From the NCBI GenBank assembly GCA_001769535.1, contig MEOH01000022.1:248001-312000 (forward strand): a DNA stretch of 64,000 nucleotides. The letters run 5' to 3'. Positions 25,030 to 39,983 of the stretch are shown piece after piece. The position numbers and the translations under genes were made by a program. How positions within the stretch are numbered: the stretch's first letter is position 1; the number at the start of each line of letters is the position of its first letter. Origin of the DNA: Bacteroidetes bacterium GWF2_38_335. GTDB taxonomy: Bacteria; Bacteroidota; Bacteroidia; Bacteroidales; GWF2-38-335. The notes beneath the pieces are model-generated. The model saw nothing but the letters and a program-made list of their open reading frames with translations. It searched no databases and was not told the origin of the DNA.

Positions 25030-25701
25030 TTATCGCTCGTTGATTAAACTAATAATTTTTTTCGGATCAAATCCCCTTGTAATAGTAAGCCAAAAATATT
25101 CATCAATTATTTTTACTAAACTTGATTGCTTACTTTTTAATTCTGACGGTAATTGCTCAATTTTAAAATTGTTTTTCCCGCACTCCTCCTTAATTATTAA
25201 TAATTCTTTTTTGACTCTTTTTAAATATTTTGTATAACCATTCCCGTCATATGAATAACCATGATCCTTTATAATAGGGTTATCCCATGGAGGAAACATG
25301 TTTTTTCTTAAAGCAAACAAAGTTTTTGCTGCCCCAACCGGACCAAAGGTCTTTTTTACGCCATTCTTACTCTCAGAGGCAAATTTTTCTTTTAATAAAT
25401 CAAAAATTTCACCGTATTGCTTAATTTTATTATCCTTTTCGTAAATCAGCGATAACGAATGGTCAGGCAATACATCAAATGCTTTTTCGTGCCATTCTAT
25501 AAAATCTTTTGCAGCTTTATCATGGTCTTCAATTTTAAACTGCCTGCAACCCCAATCATTAAGAAATTTTAATATCAATTTACAATCGGCTTTTTGTAGC
25601 TCTTTGCCAAATTCCTTTTCAGCAATCGTTTGGTAGCTTTTCTCAAAGTCAAAAAGGATTGACATTATGTGTGAGGTTACTTTTAATTCTTGGATTGTCA
25701 T
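25030..25701 (-). CDS. Hypothetical protein, last gene of the RM-associated operon
   Basis: The 223-residue soluble protein is not recognised. It has a conserved-looking central stretch (FGPVGAAKTLFALRKNMFPP followed by WDNPI) resembling a motif seen in poorly characterised proteins near mobile and defence genes. The rest is helical and charged. It lies 22 bases after the SIR2-like gene on the same strand and is probably co-transcribed with it. No catalytic motif is visible. Its low GC matches its neighbours. Confidence 0.75.
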   Translation of the reverse strand: MTIQELKVTSHIMSILFDFEKSYQTIAEKEFGKELQKADCKLILKFLNDWGCRQFKIEDHDKAAKDFIEWHEKAFDVLPDHSLSLIYEKDNKIKQYGEIFDLLKEKFASESKNGVKKTFGPVGAAKTLFALRKNMFPPWDNPIIKDHGYSYDGNGYTKYLKRVKKELLIIKEECGKNNFKIEQLPSELKSKQSSLVKIIDEYFWLTITRGFDPKKIISLINER

Positions 25702-25723
25702 AAGTTTTCCTCCTTATGTTTTA

Positions 25724-26743
25724 TTATAATTCATTAGGCATAAAAAACTGTTCAACATCATTTACCTCAATAAGATTTGAATCAGATATATCAGACCTGA
25801 TTGCTTTAAACCTTGATTTATATTGTTTAGGTACATCTCCTGGTGCTTGAAAATAAACAGTTTTTAAATCTGACATATTTCCAATTATTTCCCGGTCAAT
25901 TTCTCTATTAAAAACCGGCATGGAATAACCAATAATAACTAAAGCAATCGTGTCTTTTGTTGATGTTAAAATTGCGCCTTTTGTTTTTTCATTTAATTCC
26001 TCTTTTTCCCATGCAAATGAAAGTGTAGGGGTTAAATAACCATCAAAATTGGTTGAATAGAAATAAGTTCTTACAAGACTATCAATAAAGTCACGTTTTA
26101 TTTTTTGCTTTAAATTGTCAATGGGATTTTGTATTTTATCTATAGTTTTAAATCCTGTTGTTCCATTGATTTTAAATATTGAAAAAGAATCCTCATCATC
26201 CGCTTTTGAAAGCAGGTTAATTTCCTTTGGAATAACATTTAATAAATTTTGATTGCTAAAAATATCGTCCTTACCGCTATAATCACAATATGCTTTTTCA
26301 AATTGATAATCGTAATTCCAGGAAATAACCCTTATTCTTGGACTCATTCTGCCTGAATTACTTATTATAGAGGCAATAAAACTATCATATCGTGGATTAG
26401 TACTGTTTTTTGCCTGTTCGTAAATAAAAAAAAGTGATAAAATGCACTTTAGTTTTTTGTATGCTTGGTGCTTTTGAGTGACCAATAATTTTTTTGCAAA
26501 GGTATCAATACTTGAGTGTTTTCCTGATTCTTTTTCTAGCCAATCAATATCATCCTTAAAAGACTTTTGCACTTCCCTTTTTGTCGGTTTTGAATTTCCG
26601 TCATACTTTTCCAAATCGCTTAATAAATATTGTGCATTAGAAATAATGTTACTGAATTCCCTCAGTGATTTTGGAATCTGTTCAACAACGGGTACAGCTC
26701 CAAAACTTGCTCCTGCTCCAAATAAATATGTTATTTTACTCAT
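25724..26743 (-). CDS. SIR2-like domain protein
   Basis: The 339-residue protein has the SIR2-like pattern of defence NADases: an N-terminal nucleotide loop LFGAGAS (7-13), a core SWNYDYQFE (141-149), and a C-terminal VIIGYSMPVFN motif. The position that normally holds the catalytic His in K-L-H-G reads KINGT (191-195), so the His appears replaced by Asn and NADase activity may be altered or lost. Defence SIR2 proteins deplete NAD+ after phage sensing. The gene sits between a membrane-anchored coiled-coil protein (24-base gap) and an unrecognised gene (22-base gap) in one run. The domain is well supported; activity is not. Confidence 0.75.
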   Translation of the reverse strand: MSKITYLFGAGASFGAVPVVEQIPKSLREFSNIISNAQYLLSDLEKYDGNSKPTKREVQKSFKDDIDWLEKESGKHSSIDTFAKKLLVTQKHQAYKKLKCILSLFFIYEQAKNSTNPRYDSFIASIISNSGRMSPRIRVISWNYDYQFEKAYCDYSGKDDIFSNQNLLNVIPKEINLLSKADDEDSFSIFKINGTTGFKTIDKIQNPIDNLKQKIKRDFIDSLVRTYFYSTNFDGYLTPTLSFAWEKEELNEKTKGAILTSTKDTIALVIIGYSMPVFNREIDREIIGNMSDLKTVYFQAPGDVPKQYKSRFKAIRSDISDSNLIEVNDVEQFFMPNEL

Positions 26744-26767
26744 TTTATATCGGTGGTGTTAATTACA

Positions 26768-27433
26768 TTATACTCCAAGTAGTTGTCTAAATTCAAACTC
26801 TAATTGTTCTATTACTTTCGGCACTTCGGTTCTAACAAAATCACTCGCTTTTTTAGACTTTTCTCTATATTCTTGGATAATACTTTCAGGTGTATTTCCT
26901 TTTTTTAAAAAATAATATTCATTATAATCCCAAATATTGTTAAAATATAGCAACCTAATTTTATCAAGTATTATACATGTTTCTGGTTTAAAGTAGATTT
27001 TAGTTTCCTGATAATATTTGAAAAAATCATTATAGGAATAATCAAGATTTTTTGCTCGCTCAAGATTTTCTTTTTCTAAGTTTTCAATTACCAACTTTAT
27101 TGGAGCCATTTGTTCTAAAACTAAATTATGAAGATTAACAAGTTTCTTATATAAATTCTCAATAACTTCACTTCTTTTTTCATGCAATTTAGAATACTGA
27201 ATTTGAAACCCCATCTTGATTAAATCCAGTTCTTTCTTATATGATTCCAACTTTTTATCAATTTCCAATTGAAGTTTGTTGTTTTCATATTCCAGTTGCT
27301 TTTTCTTTATTTCAATTGTTTCATGAAAGAAATATTCGATTAGTTTTTTTCCGAAAAAGCCGACAACAATAATCAAGAAAACCGGAATTCCTGCTGTTAT
27401 GCTTATTAACTGAATTATTTCTGTTGTACTCAT
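26768..27433 (-). CDS. Single-pass membrane protein with long coiled coil
   Basis: The 221-residue protein has an N-terminal membrane helix (about 8-28, ITAGIPVFLIIVVGFFGKKL) followed by a long charged coiled coil (about 38-80, rich in Lys/Glu/Leu) and a helical C-terminal domain. No enzymatic motif is seen. It begins two bases after the restriction-modification gene and ends 24 bases before the SIR2-like gene. Such a layout suggests a membrane-tethered partner of one of its neighbours. No family is recognised. Confidence 0.75.
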   Translation of the reverse strand: MSTTEIIQLISITAGIPVFLIIVVGFFGKKLIEYFFHETIEIKKKQLEYENNKLQLEIDKKLESYKKELDLIKMGFQIQYSKLHEKRSEVIENLYKKLVNLHNLVLEQMAPIKLVIENLEKENLERAKNLDYSYNDFFKYYQETKIYFKPETCIILDKIRLLYFNNIWDYNEYYFLKKGNTPESIIQEYREKSKKASDFVRTEVPKVIEQLEFEFRQLLGV

Positions 27434-27435
27434 AA

Positions 27436-30400
27436 TTATTCAATATCAATTTTATCAACCTCCCCCATAATCCTATCCGTCTCAAAAAGCGCCACAATTA
27501 TTTTCTGATAATGCAAAATATCCTCAAACTCCAATTTCCGATCCTTGCGGTCTTTCAGCCATTTTTGGGCAGGTTGGTAGCCACCAATATAAAAGTTCCA
27601 GGCAATTTCCGGTACATTTTCAAAATACTGGGTTTCGTTAATAAAAACTTTTCCCGAATCAAATTTTATTTTACCAACCAAATTTGTTCCATCAACAGGG
27701 TACTTAGTAATATATTTATCTACAACCGGGCTTTCCAGTAAATGTATTTGCCGCAGTTCGCCGCCAAGCTTCACCAACTGCCAAAAAGTTGTTAAATCTT
27801 TTGGAAAAAGAATTCGAGGAAAGTTATTTTTTAAAAACTGTTGATATTTATTTCTATATGAAGGTGAATACAAAACAGCATAAATATAATCGAGTAAATT
27901 TAGTGGATTAAATGAGGTTTGATTATTACTTGAATCATTTGAAAAAGGAAGATTTAGTAATTTAGAAAACTTATCAATTATAGTAATATTTAAATTAGAT
28001 ATACATGTAAGATCTTGATTTATATTTAATTTAGTGTCATCTTTTTCATAAATATATAAAGGGCAGAAGCAATTTACCTCTTTTATACTAATTGAATGAT
28101 GTTGGATAATCCTATTAAAAACAAAAATATCCGTAAAATCCCTTTTTTGTTCTATTCTTCTATTAAAGCAAAGACCGTAATTTTTATTTGAGAAAAAATG
28201 TTGCATAATTGGTTTTCTGGGATTAGTATAAAATCCAATAACTTTACCAGTATAATAAGTCCAACGCGTATCAAATGGGCGATAATCTATTTTAGTTAAA
28301 AAATTCTCATTGGGGCCCTTTGAGTTTATATCTTGAATTGCTTCGTTAACTTTCCAAGTAGTACTATCTTTTCCTAAATCATATTTCAACCTTGCTTCAT
28401 CAGCTCTTAAAGTTGAAAAATCCTTAACTCTATCCCAAATATTTTTTTTAGTAAAATCTATTGTAAAACTATCTCTTGCAGTAACAATACCAGTTGAATA
28501 TCTTATAAATAAATCTATTAAACTAAACCCTTCTTCATATTTTTTTTCGAGCTCATAGTTTCGGGGTTTAAAAACAAATTCAGGTCCTTTTAAATTTACT
28601 TCCTTATAAGAACTATTATAATAATCGTTTTCTAATAAGTAATTATACTTAAAATCTCGACTTCCCCACAATTCCATGTAATTAACAGTTGCAAGTTTGG
28701 AAGTTTTAGATGTTTTCTTAACAAAGATATTAATTGATACTCCTTGTTGAATATCAAAAACATTCATATCCGGGCTTCCATCGTCACAAATATCCTTTTT
28801 ATTAGAATTGCCATGTAAATCAAGGATATAAATTTTATCAAATGATTGCAATAAACTCCAACGCATTCCTCTAAAGGTTGGAGCATCTAAAAAATTATTA
28901 TTATTAATATAGGCAACTATTCCTGTAAGGTTTTTTGTAATTAAATCATCTGCTAAAGCTATAAATTTAATATAATCGTCATTGAGATTTTTTTCTAATT
29001 GCAGGGCGCCTTTTTCTATTATTTTTACACCATTTATATATTTATATTTTTCTATTATTTTTTTTTGATTATCAGATAAATTACTTGAATATAAACTATA
29101 AGGCGGATTCCCAATAACACACATAACTGGTGTATCCCTCTTTATATGATTTGCCTCATTTGCCTCAGTAGCCAGCCAATTAGCCCATAAAGTTCCTGTA
29201 TCAGGGTGATATTCTTCAAGACTATTTGTCAAGTAAACACGTAAACGATCATCTTTTGTTGATTTAAATCCGGTTTCCTTAAAAAGCAAATCCAGTTTTA
29301 AATGAGCCATGGCATAAGAGGCCATTAGTAGTTCAAAACCGTTTAATCGCGGCAGCAAATGATTTTCCACATAATTACTCCAAATACCTTGTTGTCCTTC
29401 AAACTTTTTATAAATGTGCTTTACCACTTCGGCTAAAAATGTTCCTGTTCCGGTGGCTGGGTCTAGAATCTGGACTTTATGAACTTCAACCTCCCGTTCA
29501 ATTTGTTTTGTTTTTGAACGCGAATCGGCTGTTGCTTTAGTATAGTCTTTTATTTTTATGGTTGTTTTACTGTTGTCGGCCAGGCCCTGTGGCAAACCAA
29601 ATTCTGTTTTTAAAATATCATCAACAGCACGGACAATAAAATTTACAACAGGAGCAGGGGTGTACCAAACCCCACGGGCTTTACGCAATTTTGGGTCGTA
29701 CTCACTTAAAAAAGTTTCATAAAAATGGATTATTGGGTCTTCCGTTTTTGTGGTCTTTCCATAATTTTTCAACAGTTCTTCAACGTTGCAGGCAAGAAAA
29801 ATTTCGATTAAACCATCAACAACCCATTTGATGCGGTCGTCAATATCCGGCCCGGCAATATAGCCAAACAGTTTTCGTAAAAACGGGTTCGACTTAGGTA
29901 TCAGCTCTGCTGCTTCAGCTCTGCTAAAAGTTGGCAGGGTAGGATCATGCAATCTTGCAGCAAATAAACCATAAGCAATTGTCTGAGAATAAATATCGGC
30001 AAAACTTTTCGGTGCAATATCATGAATAAGCACTTGTTTAAAAGCCGTCATTTGGTCTTTAAGCGTACTGTCTTCATTGTGGGTTTCGTCACTGGTCAAT
30101 GCTTTTTCGATAATATCAGAAAGCAAACGGGCTTTACCAGCCATCATTTCGGCCAGCTTTTTGGAACTTTTTATAGTCTGACCAATGTAAGTGCAAAAAT
30201 CTTTAATCAGGTTTTCAAATGCCGTAAAATTTTCGGGCAGCGGAATTATTTTACCGTTTTGTAATTCTGCAATTTTTATTTTAGTCACAAACTGACCATC
30301 CCTATATAAATGAAAATCCAGATAATCAGTAAAAATCAAATTACTCAGTGAGCCTTTGTAGCGGTCAAACTGCTCTTTGTTCCCCGTTTTCTTAACCCCA

Positions 30401-30633
30401 TCCAAATCATCGTCGCCAATATCTTTAGTTTCGATAAACCCCACCGGAATATCCTTTTTGGTAATAATATAATCCGGCGCCCCGCACTTTTGTCTTTTCG
30501 GCTCATTGGTAGCATTAATAACCGGAACAAAACTTTCAATAAGCAGTTGCAGGTCCCCTCTAAAAGTGTGCTCAGTCGAGTTGCCGAGTTTGTAGCGGGT
30601 GGTTATGCTTTGGAGGTATTGGGAAATGGTCAT
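27436..30633 (-). CDS. Type IIG-like restriction endonuclease/DNA methyltransferase
   Basis: The 1065-residue protein has an N-terminal PD-(D/E)XK-like site (Asp54 in GAPDY, Glu68 and Lys70 in GFIETK), a helical connector (about 140-320), GVWYTP (321-326), the SAM-binding motif DPATGTGTF (391-399) and the N6-adenine catalytic motif NPPY (509-512). The remaining 550 residues probably read the DNA target, as in type ISP and type IIL/IIG enzymes. No helicase domain is present, so it is not a full type ISP enzyme. It would both cut and methylate. It is packed with a DUF2971 gene (5-base gap) upstream and a membrane/coiled-coil gene (2-base gap) downstream. Confidence 0.88.
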   Translation of the reverse strand: MTISQYLQSITTRYKLGNSTEHTFRGDLQLLIESFVPVINATNEPKRQKCGAPDYIITKKDIPVGFIETKDIGDDDLDGVKKTGNKEQFDRYKGSLSNLIFTDYLDFHLYRDGQFVTKIKIAELQNGKIIPLPENFTAFENLIKDFCTYIGQTIKSSKKLAEMMAGKARLLSDIIEKALTSDETHNEDSTLKDQMTAFKQVLIHDIAPKSFADIYSQTIAYGLFAARLHDPTLPTFSRAEAAELIPKSNPFLRKLFGYIAGPDIDDRIKWVVDGLIEIFLACNVEELLKNYGKTTKTEDPIIHFYETFLSEYDPKLRKARGVWYTPAPVVNFIVRAVDDILKTEFGLPQGLADNSKTTIKIKDYTKATADSRSKTKQIEREVEVHKVQILDPATGTGTFLAEVVKHIYKKFEGQQGIWSNYVENHLLPRLNGFELLMASYAMAHLKLDLLFKETGFKSTKDDRLRVYLTNSLEEYHPDTGTLWANWLATEANEANHIKRDTPVMCVIGNPPYSLYSSNLSDNQKKIIEKYKYINGVKIIEKGALQLEKNLNDDYIKFIALADDLITKNLTGIVAYINNNNFLDAPTFRGMRWSLLQSFDKIYILDLHGNSNKKDICDDGSPDMNVFDIQQGVSINIFVKKTSKTSKLATVNYMELWGSRDFKYNYLLENDYYNSSYKEVNLKGPEFVFKPRNYELEKKYEEGFSLIDLFIRYSTGIVTARDSFTIDFTKKNIWDRVKDFSTLRADEARLKYDLGKDSTTWKVNEAIQDINSKGPNENFLTKIDYRPFDTRWTYYTGKVIGFYTNPRKPIMQHFFSNKNYGLCFNRRIEQKRDFTDIFVFNRIIQHHSISIKEVNCFCPLYIYEKDDTKLNINQDLTCISNLNITIIDKFSKLLNLPFSNDSSNNQTSFNPLNLLDYIYAVLYSPSYRNKYQQFLKNNFPRILFPKDLTTFWQLVKLGGELRQIHLLESPVVDKYITKYPVDGTNLVGKIKFDSGKVFINETQYFENVPEIAWNFYIGGYQPAQKWLKDRKDRKLEFEDILHYQKIIVALFETDRIMGEVDKIDIE

Positions 30634-30638
30634 AATTA

Positions 30639-31385
30639 TTATATTTTATATGGATTCAATCTTAATCCTTCATATTTTAATGAATACAGGTCAATATTTG
30701 GACAAATATTTTTCACTGAAGGCAAATAGTTCATATTAAAGTCAACCCCAAAAAATATTTTTTTTAAACTTTTTTTTATAGAGCAATATTCTTTTTCATG
30801 AAATTTTTTTGAGTAAAAAAGTAATCTAAATTCGTGTTCAGATGCCCATTCTATATCCTTTATAAAAAACAATTCTTTAAAGTACCTTTTCCTGAAATCA
30901 TTTTTTAAATACGCTTCACCCAATTTAAATAATTTAGTGTGGTCTACAAAAATTGTTTTATATGGCTTGTTTATTTTAAATTCTTTATATTGAATTTTTC
31001 TAAATAGTAACGGATCAATTTTACCAGAATTCTCACTAATAAATTCGTTTTTATCAATTTCTAAACATATACCTTTATGATTGGCTCCATAATAAGACCA
31101 CATCCTTGCATATTCATAACCAAAAAAATCCTTAAAATCTTGACTAAAGGAAATAAATTTACAATCAGACCTTAATATTTCTGAAATTTTTTGATTTGCT
31201 ATTTCCATATCTGAGTCTAATAAATGCTCTTTTTTCCAATATTTCTCAGCAAATAAAAAACTCTTATATTCTCGGGGATCATTTGTTTTATTAAAATTAT
31301 TTAATAATAATTCATTTAGTGGTAAAATTGACTCAATTGCTGTATCAAGTTTGCAGTAATGATATATTCTATTTGTTGGACTCAC
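30639..31385 (-). CDS. DUF2971 domain-containing protein
   Basis: The 248-residue protein matches the pattern of DUF2971: an N-terminal YHYCKLDTAIESIL, the NNFNKTNDPREY motif and FISFSQDF followed by ARMWSYYGANHKGICLEI. DUF2971 proteins are widespread next to restriction and defence genes and their activity is not established. The gene ends 5 bases before the type IIG gene and starts 20 bases after a membrane protein gene, so it belongs to the same transcription unit. It is AT-rich like its neighbours. Confidence 0.82.
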   Translation of the reverse strand: MSPTNRIYHYCKLDTAIESILPLNELLLNNFNKTNDPREYKSFLFAEKYWKKEHLLDSDMEIANQKISEILRSDCKFISFSQDFKDFFGYEYARMWSYYGANHKGICLEIDKNEFISENSGKIDPLLFRKIQYKEFKINKPYKTIFVDHTKLFKLGEAYLKNDFRKRYFKELFFIKDIEWASEHEFRLLFYSKKFHEKEYCSIKKSLKKIFFGVDFNMNYLPSVKNICPNIDLYSLKYEGLRLNPYKI

Positions 31386-31405
31386 AGATTAAAATATTTT
31401 TGAAA

Positions 31406-32284
31406 TTATTTAAAGCATTTTATTTCTTTACCAAGCTTACTTTTTCTAATAAATAGTTCAAATCCTTTTTTAACTTTGATTTTCTTCTCATAGTCATTAA
31501 AAATCTTTTTAAATTTCTTTTTTGATGTTTTTTGATATGTGTGGCCAAAAGTGTTAAGAAAGCTAATACCAATTATATGGTAACACCTTAAAACATTCAA
31601 GTTTTTATCATAGTCATCAGCATTAATATCAATAAAGTAATGAATCACTTTTTTTAGAATAAGATAATTTTGATCAAGTTTTTCTTTAAAATCATCGAAA
31701 TCCATTACCCTTTCATTGTTTAAACTTAACACGGCCTTCGTGTAACCAATTAAGTCATTTTTATAAAAATGGTTTGTATTTTGCCTATGATCATATCCGA
31801 GTTCTCTAAGAATATCAATATCTGTAAAAATGTCCTTAAATGTTTTTACATATTTTAAAAACAAAATGTCGGATTTTTCAGCTATTGTTGAGTCTATTGT
31901 AATAGTATCTCTCTCTGTTTTTATTGTCAAATGAATTATTAGTAAAAAACGATAAATAAAGCTGTTAATATAATATTGGTCACCTTCCCGGGGAACTTTA
32001 TGCCAGTTTTCACCAACATTTTGGCTGAAATTCCATATTCTGTGATTAAATTCTTCAACTGCATTTAGTAAAGGTATTTTATTTTTTGCTATTTCTGCTT
32101 TTAACTTCTTTTTTTGCTCAAATTTGAACTCTTTTTTAAGCTTATAATTTAGAGAATTTCTCTCATAAATTCCTTTAAAAAACCAACCTAAGACCAATAC
32201 AATAATAGAAGTTATACTGGAAATTAATACCACTTGAATTTTTACATCAAGCTTATTAAACCAATCAATAATATCAATAATCAT
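31406..32284 (-). CDS. Single-pass membrane protein, hypothetical
   Basis: The 292-residue protein has an N-terminal membrane helix (about 17-38, VVLISSITSIIVLVLGWFF) and a large cytoplasmic, Lys-rich helical domain. No known motif is visible. It is the probable first gene of the run that leads through the DUF2971 and type IIG genes, with a 20-base gap to DUF2971 and an 85-base gap behind the NTase-HEPN gene. A role in placing the system at the membrane is conceivable but not supported by a motif. Confidence 0.7.
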   Translation of the reverse strand: MIIDIIDWFNKLDVKIQVVLISSITSIIVLVLGWFFKGIYERNSLNYKLKKEFKFEQKKKLKAEIAKNKIPLLNAVEEFNHRIWNFSQNVGENWHKVPREGDQYYINSFIYRFLLIIHLTIKTERDTITIDSTIAEKSDILFLKYVKTFKDIFTDIDILRELGYDHRQNTNHFYKNDLIGYTKAVLSLNNERVMDFDDFKEKLDQNYLILKKVIHYFIDINADDYDKNLNVLRCYHIIGISFLNTFGHTYQKTSKKKFKKIFNDYEKKIKVKKGFELFIRKSKLGKEIKCFK

Positions 32285-32369: not shown

Positions 32370-33230
32370 TTAAATACTGCCAATATAGGTATCCAATGAG
32401 TATTTAATCAACCCCCTCAAAATCCCAACTCTCTCGCTCAACCACTCCAATTCCTCTTTCTTAATTTCATAATCCATCTTATACCTCGAATCAATATAAG
32501 CCCTTTTAAGCAAATTAAACAACCGTTCCTCCTCTGCATTAGTGCGCGGAAAAACCGATTTAAACCGGCTGTCAAGTTTACAAACCATCCTGCTTAACTG
32601 GTCCAAATCATGTACTTTGGGTTTATAGTCGGTATAAACCAAAAGAACAGTCATAAAAAAACGCTCCGTGGCTTGGTGTAGCTCAAAAGCTGCTTTAATA
32701 TAATCCTCACGATTCATACAATGATTAAAATCAATGATAAAACTCTCAGCGTTTTTAAACCACCTTTCAAAATACATCTTAGCTTTTTCCCTTCTCTGTT
32801 TTTCATTAAGGGGCAGGGGAGAGGCTAGTTTATGTTTTCCGCTGTCATAAAGCAAAATCCCATCCTTTAAAATATCAGTAAAAAAGTAATTACCCTGTTC
32901 AATTTCAGCGTTCAGGTATTCAATTCCATGAAAAATAATATTGAGCGGAGTATTTTTCGGAATAACAGTTTTAATTTTCTGTTTCCAGCGTTTTTCAGCT
33001 TCTTTTGCGATTGCCTGGCTCTCGCTATCCATCACCACCAAAATGTCATAGTCGCTTTGGTATTCGTAGGTAATACCGTCTTCGATATATTTATCATTTA
33101 CTTGCTGGCCACGGGCGTATGAACCGAATAAAATGATCATTTGGGCGGGGAGTTTTTCGCGGATAACCGAAACAATGCCGTTTATTTCGGTTTGGGTTTT
33201 AATTGATAGGTGGTTTATTGTGGTTTTCAC
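32370..33230 (-). CDS. Nucleotidyltransferase-HEPN fusion protein
   Basis: In this 286-residue protein the N-terminal half is a minimal nucleotidyltransferase with GSYARG (36-41) and SDYDILVVMD (59-68), the G-S...D-x-D metal site. The C-terminal half (about 145-286) is a HEPN-like helical bundle (REKAKMYFERWFKNAESF, then AAFELHQATERFFM). Separate MNT and HEPN proteins form toxin-antitoxin pairs in which the MNT adenylylates the HEPN RNase; here both are in one chain, a form known in Bacteroidota. The usual HEPN RNase motif (R-x4-6-H) is not obvious, with VHDL at the expected place. It may belong to the defence island or be an independent unit. Confidence 0.8.
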   Translation of the reverse strand: MKTTINHLSIKTQTEINGIVSVIREKLPAQMIILFGSYARGQQVNDKYIEDGITYEYQSDYDILVVMDSESQAIAKEAEKRWKQKIKTVIPKNTPLNIIFHGIEYLNAEIEQGNYFFTDILKDGILLYDSGKHKLASPLPLNEKQRREKAKMYFERWFKNAESFIIDFNHCMNREDYIKAAFELHQATERFFMTVLLVYTDYKPKVHDLDQLSRMVCKLDSRFKSVFPRTNAEEERLFNLLKRAYIDSRYKMDYEIKKEELEWLSERVGILRGLIKYSLDTYIGSI

Positions 33231-33386: not shown

Positions 33387-34148
33387 TTAAAACTTTTCCG
33401 GAGTGTTTTTAAGTAATAAATACATTTTTTTTACTTCATTTTTTGTATAACCATTAATATTTATTTGTTTCTTATTCATATTAAATAATTTTCTACCAAT
33501 TATTGCATTTGCATAATTTATATCAATAATATCATATAATAGAGATGCCCCAATTGGAGTTAATTTGTAGTAATTTTTCTCTAATTCATTTAAAAAGTTC
33601 ACATAATTTATTTCTATAAAAGTTTCTTCTTCAATTATTATCTGTTCAACAGAATCATTAATAAAAAGATCTCTTAATTCATTTGTAAAAGAAATAATAT
33701 TCTTCATATTATCTTGTAATCCGTTAATTTTGAATATATCCCCGTTTAATTTTCCAGTAGGGGCAATTATAAAGAATAGATCTTTTATGTAAATAACATC
33801 TTTTGTGTATTTGCTATCAGAATATTTATATTCAATTTCTAAAACGGATGTAGTTGAAACCCAAATATTTTTTGCCGTTCCGTCTAATTTGGAAACGATT
33901 AACTCTACTCCAGATAATTGAGTTGAATCTTTATTCCACAAATAATTTTGATTTATTTGAAAAGTAGGAAGATTTGAAAAATAGTCCATTTTTTCTTGTC
34001 TTTCTGAAATGATAGTTTGTCTTTCAGAGTTTCTATTGCCTTGATAAGTTATTATTACAGTTATAACTGTTAAGGAAATTGCAGTAATTGTAGTGAAAAA
34101 AATTTCATTATTTTTTAAAAACACTCTAATTTTTTTTATTGATTCCAT
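33387..34148 (-). CDS. Single-pass membrane protein, hypothetical
   Basis: The 253-residue protein has an N-terminal membrane helix (about 16-36, FFTTITAISLTVITVIIT) and a mostly beta/alpha soluble part with no motif I recognise. It lies 60 bases after the NACHT gene on the same strand, so it may be co-transcribed with it or stand alone. It is AT-rich like the rest of the island and shares its layout (anchor plus soluble domain) with the proteins at 26768 and 31406, but not obvious sequence. Confidence 0.65.
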   Translation of the reverse strand: MESIKKIRVFLKNNEIFFTTITAISLTVITVIITYQGNRNSERQTIISERQEKMDYFSNLPTFQINQNYLWNKDSTQLSGVELIVSKLDGTAKNIWVSTTSVLEIEYKYSDSKYTKDVIYIKDLFFIIAPTGKLNGDIFKINGLQDNMKNIISFTNELRDLFINDSVEQIIIEEETFIEINYVNFLNELEKNYYKLTPIGASLLYDIIDINYANAIIGRKLFNMNKKQININGYTKNEVKKMYLLLKNTPEKF

Positions 34149-36190: not shown

Positions 36191-37714
36191 TTAAATATAG
36201 TGTTTAAATGGTAAAACATTTCCTTGAATATTTTTTCCAGCCGTAAGGACTTCTCCAATCGATTCAGCAAACTTCAATGTAACAGGGGCCCCGTCAGCAA
36301 ATGAACAAGTGTTATAATTCAATTTCGTTAGTGCCAATATGTCTTTGCATACTGTTTCAATATCAGATTTTCCTTTTGTAATCTCAATATTTAATGGATT
36401 TGGTGTTTCAAGTCCCAATTGGGTTTGAAGCCGAGTAATAAACCCACGAGTCCATAAATATGCTTTGTTTGAACTAAAAATTAAACAAGATCCTCTTGGA
36501 ATACAATATGAATAATCCCTGTACATCTTAAATGTTCTATCATCGCGAATTCTTACACCTACAATTTCGCTCTTATTTGCGGCTGCTTCAACAAAACCGC
36601 TCCATTCTTCATCCTCAAAATATGTCTTAGCATGAATAAAAACCTCCTTTGGATATGACTCTGTTGGTGAATAGTTTTTAAAAGCTTCTAAAGATTGATT
36701 GATAATTTCAACTGCGTCATTATGTGAAAGGTGAAATTCTTTAGTTTTTGGGTTGTACCATGGGCCTATATTGCCTCTAAACACCATACCGTCTCCTGAA
36801 TCCAAAAACATTTGGGCAGCACAGCAAGCATTTCTATTATTTTCATCGGTTTCAAGTTTTTTATAAACTAATCCAAGATAACACACGTTTTCACGGACTT
36901 CTCCTAGACGCCAGGGTAAACCACCTGATTTGTAATATAAAGTAGTTGCAATATTCCATGCTTTTGACGAATCAAACATTTTTTCTTGTTCGATTTTTTC
37001 TTCATTGTTCCACAAGTTCTCGTAATCAATCTTACTGTCTCTAATAATTTGAGTGATAATTTTATCTGCAAGCAATTTGGCTTTTAATTGATTATGAAAG
37101 TTCACTTCAAACTGATAAGCTTCTCTTAAAGCATCATTCTCTTCTTGAAAAAACATAGATAATTGTTGACTATCTCTATCCTTTTTCTTTAAGCTAAGGG
37201 TTATATTATTTTCGGATTTTGGAATTCTTGAATTTGGTCTTCCAAATTTAAAAATATCCTCGGGAATAATTACAAACCAAACTATTACTGGAATTTCTTC
37301 CTTATTTGTATAATCAATAAGCTTATCTGAATATAGATTTGTCAAATTATGAACTCTTTGATGATTATCAGAATAGTTTAGATACTTATTGATTTCATCT
37401 TGTGGCACCTCAATTTGTTGAAGATTTTCAAAATTAATATGAATGCCAAAAGTAGCATTCAATCCAGGAAAATCTGGTCTGGCTGAATCATCCTTGTTGC
37501 TCTTAACAGGCGAATGTATTTTTTTAAGAAATTCTATAAGTTTTGTACGTAAACTATTTGGTCCTATGACACCAACATTTACTTGCCCAGATATTTTCTT
37601 TTTTGAAAATGGCCCAAATAAAGTAAGTCCATCCCTTGGGTCAGAAATTTTCTGATTATATCCAAATGATAATTTTGGCTCAGAAATATGTATCATTTTA
37701 GGTTCTAGCATCAT
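36191..37714 (-). CDS. Short prokaryotic Argonaute (SPARTA component)
   Basis: The 507-residue protein carries MID and PIWI-like regions but no N or PAZ domain, as in short pAgos. Recognisable stretches are the N-terminal FGYNQKISDPRDGLTLFGPF, KSGGLPWRLGE in the mid region, and VFIHAKTYF and GVRIRDDRTFKMYRDYSY in the PIWI part. Short pAgos lack the PIWI catalytic tetrad and act as guide-directed sensors of invading DNA. The start overlaps the TIR-APAZ stop by 4 bases (ATGA), the usual SPARTA operon layout. The complex would bind an RNA guide and complementary plasmid or phage DNA and switch on the TIR NADase. The inactive PIWI is family knowledge and was not fully verified here. Confidence 0.85.
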   Translation of the reverse strand: MMLEPKMIHISEPKLSFGYNQKISDPRDGLTLFGPFSKKKISGQVNVGVIGPNSLRTKLIEFLKKIHSPVKSNKDDSARPDFPGLNATFGIHINFENLQQIEVPQDEINKYLNYSDNHQRVHNLTNLYSDKLIDYTNKEEIPVIVWFVIIPEDIFKFGRPNSRIPKSENNITLSLKKKDRDSQQLSMFFQEENDALREAYQFEVNFHNQLKAKLLADKIITQIIRDSKIDYENLWNNEEKIEQEKMFDSSKAWNIATTLYYKSGGLPWRLGEVRENVCYLGLVYKKLETDENNRNACCAAQMFLDSGDGMVFRGNIGPWYNPKTKEFHLSHNDAVEIINQSLEAFKNYSPTESYPKEVFIHAKTYFEDEEWSGFVEAAANKSEIVGVRIRDDRTFKMYRDYSYCIPRGSCLIFSSNKAYLWTRGFITRLQTQLGLETPNPLNIEITKGKSDIETVCKDILALTKLNYNTCSFADGAPVTLKFAESIGEVLTAGKNIQGNVLPFKHYI

Positions 37715-39105
37715 TCTCCTCCTTCATCATCATCATCATCAAAAAAGTACTCTTTTAGCATATCCTCTGGTTTTTTATTTGTTGGTTCATTATAACCAAA
37801 ATTGGCCCAAAACATTTCTGGCCATTCCTTCAAAAACATCTCTTTTTTCTTTGATATTACAAGTCCTATCTTTCCATTGTAATCTTTTAATCCTTGAATA
37901 AATGCCAACTGCATATCTCTCCATTCTTCATTAAAAAACCGTCTTCCTTTGGCTCTTCGATGAGAATGAATTTTATCCTTGTCCGCCCATGTTTGGAAAC
38001 CATCTGTAGTGAAAAAAATGTGAGATTTGATATCAAAACCTATGAATGGGGACAATGAAGGCTTTGCAGAAATTGCATAATGCCATTTGCCTAGGGATTT
38101 GTATTTACCAAAAAGAATTTTAGTTTTCTTCTTTCGTTTTTCACTACTATAAGGATAATTGAATGTAATTCTTGGATTTTTTAAAGTTGAAGGTACGTAA
38201 TAATACGCAAATTTCTTATTTGCCAACTCGCACCAAAACAACTTCTTTTTCCTCATTAATTGATGAAAAAATTGATTGAATAGTTTCTTAAAATGATTTT
38301 CGGCATCTTTATGTGTAGGAAAATTATCGCTTTCAAATCCAAATAACAAGTCAGTTGCAGTTATTTGATGTTTTTCTTTTGGTGTAATATTTATTATTTC
38401 TCCATCTCTTTCAACAATAAGGTCTATACTTTCTTCAAATGTTGTAAGCACATTAGATATTTTTCCTATAGGAATATCGTTTGCAAAATGAACAGCATCA
38501 GCCTGTTTTTTATTCTCAAATACATACATAAAAAAAGATTCAGGAAGATTGTCAACTGACCACCAAGAAGAATAGTATAATTCCTTTCTATTAATTATTT
38601 CATTGTTCTTAAGATATTCGCTTTCAAACCATTTTGCAATTGTGCTATCGGTTGATTCTAAAACTTTTGGTATACAATCTTTTTCCAGCTTTTTAAGTAA
38701 TTGTTCCATTCCAAGTGCCCAATCAGATTTAAAAAGAATATGATTTAGCATATTTGAACCAACAAATAAATCATATGGTGCATTATCAATGTGCAAGGGA
38801 ATGATGAAATCCTTTATTTTTTCATGTGAGGAAATACTTTCGGCTAATTCTATTTCCTTGTTAATTCCAGTCTTTAGTTCCCCTGGTTGATTGTCATAGC
38901 AAATATTGTTGGAATACACTAGAAGTATCTTAGCAGCATGATTTCGAATCACACCATCAATTTCTTTCCAAAAGCGTTCGCCTCCCAATAAACCTTCTTT
39001 ATCAATCCAAACTTTATAGCCAAGCAATTCAAGTCGAGAAGCAATCCAAATTGTAAACTCATTGTCCTCTGGAGTTGCATGACTAATAAATAGTGTATCT
39101 CTCAT
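37711..39105 (-). CDS. TIR-APAZ protein (SPARTA effector)
   Basis: The 464-residue protein begins with a TIR domain (about 1-140: TLFISHATPEDNEF, GYKVWIDKEG, WKEIDGVI and NILLVYS-like strands), with a candidate catalytic Glu48 in the FWKEID segment. It is followed by an APAZ-like region (about 150-464), which partners short Argonautes. In SPARTA the TIR oligomerises after target recognition and hydrolyses NAD(P)+, killing or arresting the cell. The Argonaute gene overlaps by 4 bases downstream. The C-terminus ends in an acidic Asp/Glu tail (DDDDDEGGE). The APAZ assignment rests on context plus a weak match, so the pair is stronger evidence than either protein alone. Confidence 0.85.
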   Translation of the reverse strand: MRDTLFISHATPEDNEFTIWIASRLELLGYKVWIDKEGLLGGERFWKEIDGVIRNHAAKILLVYSNNICYDNQPGELKTGINKEIELAESISSHEKIKDFIIPLHIDNAPYDLFVGSNMLNHILFKSDWALGMEQLLKKLEKDCIPKVLESTDSTIAKWFESEYLKNNEIINRKELYYSSWWSVDNLPESFFMYVFENKKQADAVHFANDIPIGKISNVLTTFEESIDLIVERDGEIINITPKEKHQITATDLLFGFESDNFPTHKDAENHFKKLFNQFFHQLMRKKKLFWCELANKKFAYYYVPSTLKNPRITFNYPYSSEKRKKKTKILFGKYKSLGKWHYAISAKPSLSPFIGFDIKSHIFFTTDGFQTWADKDKIHSHRRAKGRRFFNEEWRDMQLAFIQGLKDYNGKIGLVISKKKEMFLKEWPEMFWANFGYNEPTNKKPEDMLKEYFFDDDDDEGGE

Positions 39106-39871: not shown

Positions 39872-39983
39872 GTGATAAATAATTTATTTTTTGCCTACTC
39901 TTTCCGGTTTTCGGCTGCTCCGTTTAGGGTATTTACTATATGATGTACAACTGTATAAAAAGTGTACAGTTTGCTGTAAAAAA

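Follow-up and report, generated by a model that had tools for sequence, protein, structure and literature searches.

Organization of the locus

The window analysed in this study, a 64,000-nucleotide stretch of Bacteroidetes bacterium GWF2_38_335 DNA, contains a compact run of six minus-strand ORFs (g6 to g1, in the order of transcription), listed in Table 1 together with their conserved motifs. All six were present at the coordinates reported in an earlier note on this DNA, separated by gaps of 20, 5, 2, 24 and 22 bases, and all six reading frames are intact. The upstream edge of the run is arbitrary, since same-strand genes continue beyond g6: a HEPN-MNT gene (32370-33230) is located 85 bases upstream, and four further minus-strand genes reach as far as 39105. 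NACHT and SPARTA genes also neighbour the run on the same strand. These genes, together with the restriction-modification (RM) enzyme, the PDC-S31-type DUF2971 protein and the SIR2 fold encoded within the run, bear out the defence context that the earlier note had proposed.

Co-transcription of the six genes is plausible. The consensus -33/-7 promoter motif of Bacteroidota type had no minus-strand match inside the run and 10 matches in the window (6.2 expected), a further Bacteroidota motif scan gave 74 matches (85.8 expected), and the sole minus-strand terminator-like site falls outside the run. A scan for sigma-70-type promoters, which placed some sites inside the run, was dropped as uninformative: the 99 sites barely exceeded the 77.0 (sd 9.1) expected by chance in this AT-rich region. 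The GC content varies by gene, from 0.244 (DUF2971) to 0.335 (RM). In G033, a genome of the same genus, no syntenic counterpart of the flanking radical-SAM-like gene was available for an empty-site comparison; the best match had 27% identity.

Table 1. Genes and conserved features of the six-gene run (positions in the window)
Feature	Position	Strand	Characteristics
g6	31406-32284	minus	292 aa; one N-terminal hydrophobic segment; no family match
g5	30639-31385	minus	DUF2971: PF11185 3.1e-10; PADLOC PDC-S31 7.7e-16 (no curated cut-off in output)
E183-x-E185-x-R187 of DUF2971 (g5)	30825..30839	minus	invariant in six aligned relatives
g4	27436-30633	minus	1065 aa RM enzyme: Type_ISP_C 2.8e-84, N6_Mtase 3.2e-9, REase_MTase_IIG 1105.7 bits
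Nuclease motif P53-D54 ... E68-x-K70 (g4)	30424..30477	minus	invariant, 24/24 full-length homologues
Methylase motif N509-P-P-Y512 (g4)	29098..29109	minus	24/24 full-length homologues
Type_ISP_C target-recognition domain, residues 707-1057 (g4)	27463..28515	minus	PF18135 2.8e-84
g3	26768-27433	minus	221 aa; one N-terminal hydrophobic segment; no family match
g2	25724-26743	minus	SIR2-like: PADLOC SIR2 1.1e-4, Pfam SIR2_2 0.075; fold from model
W142-N143-Y144-D145 motif (g2)	26309..26320	minus	N and D in 92/92, W and Y in 91/92 relatives
N193-G194 (g2)	26162..26167	minus	92/92 relatives; His-Gly in SIR2_2 proteins
g1	25030-25701	minus	223 aa; no family match

The RM enzyme and its companions at other loci

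Judged from its sequence, g4 is a single-chain, helicase-less RM enzyme of type IIG, or type ISP-like. As in type IIG enzymes, the nuclease (judged by its motif alone), the N6 methylase and the recognition function reside in one chain. No helicase family was recognized in g4 with Pfam, i.e. no superfamily 2 motor between nuclease and methylase. In the homologue alignment, conservation by segment was lowest in residues 701-900, and the GC content is 0.23-0.36 across the target-recognition domain versus about 0.40 at the N-terminus.

Homologues of g4 (E<=1e-60) were detected in 45 of the 198 genomes of the order, its own genome counted. The comparison covered 29 other loci (L050-L078), together with L048 and 7 loci on viral contigs; the flanks were short in several cases. 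Neither g1, g3, DUF2971 nor g6 was found at any of these loci, and a SIR2-like gene was present at L048 alone, beside an RM fragment. The earlier note had suggested one six-gene system, with the same gene set expected elsewhere, and had named RM homologues lacking these neighbours as the finding that would speak against it. Such homologues are what we observed for every companion except the SIR2-like gene at L048, and the recurrence of the set was not borne out at the loci compared.

Counting the window, ten of 24 full-length RM genes are followed within 20 bases by a co-directional 3' ORF. One of these ORFs (L063) looks spurious. The other nine, g3 included, showed no mutual similarity (phmmer, E<=1), and four of them matched PADLOC families, namely PDC-S06, PDC-S62, Ppl and AbiJ. 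A small co-directional 3' gene also accompanies the RM relatives at 5 of the 7 viral loci, with a gap of 0-7 bases in four cases; two of these genes (L180 and L185) look alike. On the near-identical viral contigs L168 and L169, a SIR2-like gene, a DUF2971 protein gene and a type IIG RM gene lie on one strand within ~7 kb, the RM gene being cut by the locus end; the gaps measure 57-322 bases, and other genes intervene.

The SIR2-like protein

The sequence matches of g2 are weak, and the SIR2-like assignment made in the earlier note was confirmed by its structural model (pLDDT 93.5), from which we predict a SIR2 fold with confidence. Foldseek related this model to 8sub (7.4e-8), and VIA-align superimposed it on 8wld_E with a Z score of 14.4 and an rmsd of 3.7 over 246 aligned residues. 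A canonical sirtuin was rejected as a sequence relative of g2: the SIR2-like alignment A3 (built from 71 of the 81 eligible rows and 8 more) matched two sirtuins of the same genome over 23 columns with an E value of 0.22. A search of the genome with the sirtuin profile PF02146 matched two other genes and not g2, and a PDB sequence search with the SIR2-like alignment gave no matches at E<=1.

The conservation analysis was based on a 92-row alignment, from which two of the 86 loci (L122 and L144) were omitted as too short. Where defence SIR2 NADases have their catalytic His, all 92 relatives (for the genome loci, the best 80 of 202) have Asn. Alignment of the g2 family with SIR2_2 (hhalign; E 6.4e-9 local, 2.5e-11 global) placed N193 opposite the His-Gly of the latter. 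Residues D80, R118, N279, D283 and Q299 are also invariant. We therefore assign g2 to an unnamed family of SIR2-fold proteins in which Asn stands where the catalytic His would be. No description of a His-to-Asn SIR2 family was found in the literature searched, which comprised sources other than the full text of Payne et al. (guilt-by-embedding).

The DUF2971 protein and the remaining genes

The DUF2971 identity of g5 stands (Table 1), and homologues occur in 5 of the 198 genomes of the order, its own included. The AF2 model of g5 is of low confidence (pLDDT 63.8). The top nine VIA-align rows were all Tpt1/DarT (Z 5.1-6.8), Foldseek retrieved nothing at 1e-3, and no sequence match to solved ADP-ribosyltransferases was observed. 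According to this model, an ADP-ribosyltransferase fold is possible. No match to DUF2971 was detected in the phages searched, and its relatives on plasmids have no recognized RM gene alongside. The DUF2971 loci L175-L179 revealed no consistent g6-like partner; proteins with a strongly hydrophobic N-terminal segment are encoded downstream at L175 alone. The literature search on DUF2971 turned up one genome reannotation paper.

The hydrophobic segment of g6 spans approximately residues 18-36 (maximum Kyte-Doolittle value 2.49 at residue 18), and no other match to this protein was detected in the 198 genomes, on plasmids or in viral sequences. The g3 ORF starts 2 bases past the RM stop codon, and its product has a hydrophobic segment at the N-terminus (2.59 at residue 6), followed by a charged remainder; by eye, the protein is coiled-coil-like. 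Homologues of g3 are present in 2 of the 198 genomes (its own and G094) and on Synechococcus and Haloferax plasmids, where no RM gene lies within 6 kb. For g1, there was no other match in the 198 genomes, and a weak relative is carried by a Streptomyces plasmid.

Distribution of the SIR2-like gene and its linkage with RM genes

The SIR2-like gene was identified in 8 of the 198 genomes of the order and in 7 of 395 in the phylum (its own counted in both), while no match was obtained on the plasmids searched. It lies co-directionally near type I, II or III RM genes at 16 of 94 loci; the remaining 78 have no recognized co-directional RM gene (for the genome loci, both counts draw on the best 80 of 202). 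The RM-linked loci are scattered over the SIR2-like tree. Mapping of the RM label on the SIR2-like tree by a quick method required 13 changes, at least 6 of them forced by starred branches, and the label was weakly clustered (36 of 500 shuffles were as low). The RM-SIR2 link suggested by the earlier note is partly supported, as a recurrent embedding near RM genes of all three types. On the basis of these comparisons, the RM association of the family seems to come and go, as for mobile cargo.

Matches to RM families were found in 13 of 164 genes located one gene from SIR2 (six of the 13 being seeds, which were taken from positive loci and favour those), in 4/154 at two, 3/140 at three, 1/131 at four and 3/117 at five genes, and in none of 223 at six or more. 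Same-strand neighbours at most 150 bases from the SIR2 gene numbered 92 (5' side, 49; 3' side, 43), of which 77 were scanned with PADLOC after omission of 15 near-repeats (14 from a Flavobacteriaceae gene trio and one from L120). Among the 25 commonest families, the REase_III models matched at least 4 of the 77 genes, MTase_III at least 3 and MTase_II up to 4, all these totals being lower bounds. In a control set of 77 of the 188 genes at least four places away, the top families (type I specificity subunits and mad5) reached 2/77.

PrrC monitors type I RM enzymes and fires upon restriction block. By analogy, the SIR2-like protein might form a functional pair with the RM enzyme, monitoring the RM complex or the cut ends and firing when restriction is blocked, with the other four genes as bystanders. 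The concentration of RM genes close to SIR2 and their co-directional linkage across all three types are consistent with such a pair, as is the mod-SIR2-res order in L113, L126 and L131, where the genes are spaced by -1 to 4 bases. However, we consider it unlikely: most loci carry no recognized co-directional RM gene, including the SDR-SIR2-Schlafen trio conserved in eight Flavobacteriaceae loci, one specific contact is hardly credible across such different RM enzymes, and in the window the two genes are separated by g3.

Interpretation of the six-gene run

In our opinion, the run is probably a compact defence cluster, which has the RM gene as its hub and, stacked against both ends of that gene, single-gene modules that were acquired independently. 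This explanation is based on the following: (i) RM homologues are common while their companions change, (ii) the SIR2-like gene is linked with RM genes of three types, in a minority of loci and with many label changes on the tree, (iii) relatives of g3 and DUF2971 occur on plasmids without a recognized RM gene, and (iv) separate defence genes nested in type I RM and Hma hosts have already been reported. Several observations count against it: no co-directional ORF lies within 20 bases on the 3' side of 14 of the 24 full-length RM genes, g1 and g6 have too few homologues for a comparison of partners, the 2-24 base gaps of the run would fit one co-adapted operon as well, and three of the gene kinds occur together on L168/L169.

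Ordinary defence-island crowding, i.e. functionally unrelated genes piled up by insertion, some of them inactive or non-defensive, agrees with the HEPN-MNT, NACHT and SPARTA neighbours and with the differing GC contents of the genes, but is rather improbable given the intact frames and the preserved RM and SIR2-family motifs. One integrated system, which would detect failed restriction and answer with an abortive response carried out by the SIR2-like and membrane-anchored proteins, is very improbable, because in spite of the tight co-directional spacing, the defence families among the six and the trio on the viral contigs, g1, g3, DUF2971 and g6 are absent from the other RM loci examined, and the nearest relatives of the window SIR2-like gene (L079-L090) have no co-directional RM gene, L080 facing a type I operon divergently.

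According to the stacked-module explanation, g4 would methylate host sites and cut unmodified incoming DNA, while the companions would share its transcript yet act on their own, as a second line of defence, probably by growth arrest, against restriction-evading phages. The DUF2971 protein might act by ADP-ribosylation, like DarT, and the preserved Asn-Tyr-Asp pocket of g2 may be a binding site for NAD or an ADP-ribose derivative. Since g2 lacks the catalytic His, a nucleotide-gated switch or a changed enzyme is likelier than a standard NAD hydrolase. More speculatively, and with considerable doubt, we propose that the His-less SIR2 proteins are a distinct family, in which N143 and N193 together with the other five invariant residues build a new nucleotide site, and which bacteria have repeatedly inserted into restriction operons of types I, II and III as a shared NAD- or ADP-ribose-gated back-up effector, here maybe coupled with the NAD-linked, DarT-like DUF2971.

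Comparison with known systems

The type ISP enzymes LlaGI and LlaBIII share the Type_ISP_C domain with g4, are similar to it over the methylase and target-recognition parts (4xqk, 2.3e-33; 5ffj, 4.8e-29), and are likewise single chains with a PD-(D/E)xK-like nuclease motif. However, LlaBIII is considerably longer (1578 aa), and the alignment begins at its residue 842. The top PDB sequence match of g4 is 7lo5 (1.5e-33), a single-chain RM enzyme of 1029 aa, which we take to be DrdV of class IIL; the similarity covers the methylase and part of the recognition region, and is weak or absent elsewhere.

SIR2-HerA, ThsA (Thoeris), DSR2 and SPARSA have a SIR2 fold like that predicted for g2 (Z 14.4 for 8wld, 13.8 for SPARSA 8y80 and 13.1 for ThsA 8btp). 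The N133-Y134-D135 pocket of DSR2, as described in PMC11263360, is retained in the g2 family (N143, Y144, D145), whereas the catalytic His (H171 of DSR2, H152 of ThsA) is replaced by the invariant Asn. In contrast to these systems, g2 stands alone with about 340 aa, with no recognized HerA, SLOG, Ago or long C-terminal part. As regards SIR2-HerA (Nezha), no HerA ATPase was identified with Pfam among the six genes; the upstream NACHT gene gave 22.7 bits with the HerA model DUF87, below the cut-off of 23.2, the match falling in the NACHT P-loop. An active family would mean that phage defence can in some cases handle NAD without the histidine on which present SIR2 models and mutants rely, and that a single module serves all main restriction classes. 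If g2 is a pseudoenzyme, it would be a conserved NAD or ADP-ribose sensor awaiting its partner.

DarT toxins are the best structural company of the low-confidence g5 model, and DarTG2 is known from within a type I RM locus, according to PMC12255303. With Pfam, no DarG macrodomain antitoxin was recognized in the run or in the three genes immediately upstream of it. The resemblance to DarT offers a testable activity for a PADLOC candidate family.

A further parallel is provided by the PADLOC PDC families (guilt-by-embedding candidates), one of which (PDC-S31) is matched by g5 and two others by 3' cargoes of RM homologues, while g2 has a weak PADLOC match. The main text of the PADLOC web-server paper contains neither "embedded" nor "PDC". 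The nesting of defence genes in RM loci is a principle common to these families and the present run; the hosts named in the published work consulted are type I RM and Hma, whereas the host described here is a single-gene type IIG/ISP-like enzyme. This suggests that diverse defence cargo docks at such enzymes, as published for type I RM, and that scans of the 3' side of their genes should therefore yield more candidates.

Conservation and surroundings of the six-gene run

The genome assembly comprises 5.27 Mb in 29 contigs, and the window corresponds to positions 248001-312000 of contig C22. The six closely spaced minus-strand ORFs described in the earlier note, separated (reading upward) by 22, 24, 2, 5 and 20 bases, are present as stated. 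They are numbered here g1 to g6 from position 25030 upward; g2 encodes a SIR2-like protein, g4 the restriction-modification (RM) enzyme and g5 a DUF2971 protein. The proposal that they constitute a single new defence system is not supported, since g1, g3, the DUF2971 gene and g6 were absent from the other RM-homologue loci examined.

Homologues of the RM enzyme (E<=1e-60) were detected in 45 of the 198 genomes searched from the order, the window's own among them, the similarity being limited in some of them to the methylase and recognition half. The flanks of 29 loci (L050-L078), a fragment locus (L048) and seven viral loci (L180-L186) were compared. None of the four genes was found in the genome loci (blastp at 1e-4; phmmer with matches of E<1 printed) or in the viral ones (tblastn at 1e-3), many contigs of the RM loci being so short that part of the neighbours lies outside view. 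Own genome included, g6 occurs in one, g3 in two and the DUF2971 gene in five of the 198 genomes from the order; g1 turned up in its own genome alone, both in searches of 198 genomes from the order and of 198 from the phylum. Relatives of g3 are located on plasmids of Synechococcus and Haloferax, and those of the DUF2971 gene on plasmids of Photobacterium and Variovorax; the gene table, which is incomplete, lists no RM gene for the plasmid stretches inspected. The weak relative of g1 is on a Streptomyces plasmid, in a part that carries no annotation, and tblastn with RM queries revealed no RM gene around the plasmid relatives of g3 and g1. Taken together, these results indicate that the six genes are not a conserved set. 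The locus is best regarded as defence modules stacked, in nested fashion, around a IIG-type enzyme.

As shown in the table, defence genes continue upstream on the same strand, so the start of the run is a choice and not a boundary shown by the data. HEPN-MNT toxin-antitoxin systems are usually two-gene pairs; here the HEPN and MNT (nucleotidyltransferase) domains are fused into a single chain. The NACHT protein partly resembles antiphage EruA (1.6e-17; 63 bits, far under the EruA cut-off of 1000). Short pAgo and TIR-APAZ (36191-39105) form a SPARTA pair, a system also named in PMC10781750.

Features of the six-gene run and the adjoining region
Feature	Position	Strand	Evidence or remark
Six-gene run (g1-g6)	25030-32284	-	
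HEPN-MNT protein, 286 aa	32370-33230	-	precedes run; HEPN 2.4e-11, Polbeta 2.2e-6 (Pfam)
253-aa protein, no family	33387-34148	-	one hydrophobic segment; downstream of NACHT gene
NACHT protein, 616 aa	34209-36059	-	NACHT 2.3e-8 (Pfam)
Short pAgo	36191-37714	-	PDB 8ifk_B, 3.8e-142
TIR-APAZ	37711-39105	-	PDB 8fex_A, 7.3e-52
DUF805b RNA	39892-39924	-	Rfam, 37.7 bits (gathering score 35.6)

The RM enzyme and its 3' cargo

The RM enzyme (1065 aa) combines a PD...ExK nuclease motif (P53, D54, E68, K70), an N6-methylase (DPATGTGTF at 391-399, NPPY at 509-512) and a Type_ISP_C recognition domain (Pfam). The four nuclease residues and NPPY are retained in all 24 full-length homologues, among which residues 701-900 are the least conserved part, as expected for target recognition. 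The GC content of the gene falls from about 0.40 over the first 400 residues to 0.23-0.29 over residues 533-933, which may reflect recognition-domain exchange. In a PDB sequence search the enzyme was similar to the type ISP enzymes LlaBIII and LlaGI, but it lacks their helicase and was therefore not filed as type ISP; its PADLOC class is type IIG.

A co-directional ORF starts within 20 bases of the stop codon in 10 of the 24 full-length RM genes, including the window, where g3 begins 2 bases beyond it (the ORF of L063, another of the ten, looks spurious); the other 14 have none. The 3' proteins are mutually dissimilar (phmmer, E<=1). Ten 3' proteins were scanned, nine from L050, L051, L052, L053, L060, L062, L063, L065 and L072 and one from L077, whose RM gene is more distant. 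Of these, four matched PADLOC families, namely PDC-S06 (1.7e-256, L053), PDC-S62 (L072), Ppl (L060) and AbiJ (L065), that of L077 is an ordinary peptidase S66, and five had no match in Pfam or PADLOC. A small co-directional 3' ORF was also found at five of the seven viral loci (distances 0, 86, 7, 5 and 0 bases), L180 and L185 being similar in appearance; such an ORF is absent from L183, and L186 is cut. This suggests that the RM enzyme often, though not always, carries varied cargo.

Two genomes (L070:7670-12069 and L074:2-4105) have an RM gene interrupted near residues 640-650, where the two halves are separated by ORFs of one common family (380 and 389 codons), which resembles a YhcG/DUF1016 nuclease; a PDB sequence search with the inserted ORF gave no match.

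A SIR2-like family lacking the catalytic histidine

The AlphaFold2 model of the SIR2-like protein (79 relatives; pLDDT 93.5, pTM 0.91) had as top structural matches the SIR2 of SIR2-HerA, SPARSA, sirtuins and ThsA (Foldseek, VIA-align). N143 and D145 of a WNYD motif and N193-G194 are invariant across 92 aligned relatives. In hhalign comparison with SIR2_2 proteins from the same order, WNYD pairs with TNYD, and N193 with the His of the His-Gly motif. According to PMC11263360, Asn, Tyr, Asp and His form the catalytic pocket of DSR2 and ThsA, and DSR2 H171A serves as an inactive mutant; human FAM118 sirtuins are described as retaining the His (PMC12700824). Unlike DSR2 and ThsA, the present family has Asn at this place, and so total and fully conserved a replacement argues, at the level of alignment and model, against decay and for an altered function.

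The SIR2-like loci analysed number 94: that of the window, seven others from the order, the best 80 of 202 genome loci and six viral ones. A co-directional RM gene lies within three genes of the SIR2-like gene in 16 of these 94. The linked systems are (i) type II: the window, L043 (EcoRI-type methylase with a GmrSD_N-HNH protein), L047 and L049 (Eco57I/MmeI-type IIG), L110 (MmeI-type IIG), L048 (RM fragment) and L125 (D12 methylase); (ii) type III: L113, L126 and L131, with the SIR2-like gene between mod and res, as well as L115 and L121; and (iii) type I: L092, L117, L133 and L153. Outside this count, L080 and L124 are divergent from a facing type I operon, and in L168/L169 a IIG gene stands five genes away. 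No RM gene was recognised near the SIR2-like gene at the remaining loci, whose neighbours are partially annotated. A co-directional RM gene is absent from the loci of the window protein's nearest relatives (L079-L090, up to 44% identity), which include L080.

The RM label changes 13 times on a tree built by a quick method, at least six changes being forced by well-supported branches; this is barely below shuffled labels (mean 15.0) and points to repeated gain or loss of the linkage, not to a fixed partnership. Position within the loci matters: RM matches numbered 13/164 at one gene's distance, 4/154 at two, 3/140 at three, 1/131 at four, 3/117 at five and 0/223 at six or more, counts biased by seeds from RM-positive loci (6 of the 13 distance-one matches). 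It is this His-less SIR2 family, recurrently placed in restriction operons, that is of most interest.

Other companions were also observed. An SDR - SIR2-like - Schlafen (SLFN_AlbA_2/DUF5929) trio is kept in eight Flavobacteriaceae loci (L094, L096, L097, L099, L103, L104, L105, L109; families identified in L094) and may be inherited as a unit of two or three genes. On viral contigs L168 (5995-13022) and L169, too, the SIR2-like gene is followed by a distant AlbA_2-like gene (2.5e-6); there, SIR2-like, AlbA_2-like, DUF2971 and type IIG genes share one strand, opposite phage-like genes, and probably represent phage-borne defence cargo. In L119 (5899-6966), of which L120 is nearly a copy, a Fic/HTH gene adjoins the SIR2-like gene on its 5' side; in L134 (7491-8252) an AbiGi gene adjoins it on the 3' side.

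DUF2971 and comparison with known nested systems

Of most interest too is the resemblance of the DUF2971 protein, which matches PADLOC PDC-S31, to ADP-ribosyltransferases. Among six aligned relatives, Y-H-Y near the start (H in five of six) and an invariant E-x-E-x-R lead one to expect such an enzyme. The structural model, built on six sequences, is of low confidence (pLDDT 63.8), and Foldseek with it returned nothing at 1e-3. In VIA-align, Tpt1 and DarT structures take all of the first nine places (Z 5.1-6.8), and more ADP-ribosyltransferases come after them, mixed with other folds; with Z under 8, this putative fold is a lead, not proof. Known nested systems include a DarTG2 pair within a type I RM system, in an island with phage protection (PMC12255303), and TgvAB within a Vibrio type I RM system (PMC11411939).
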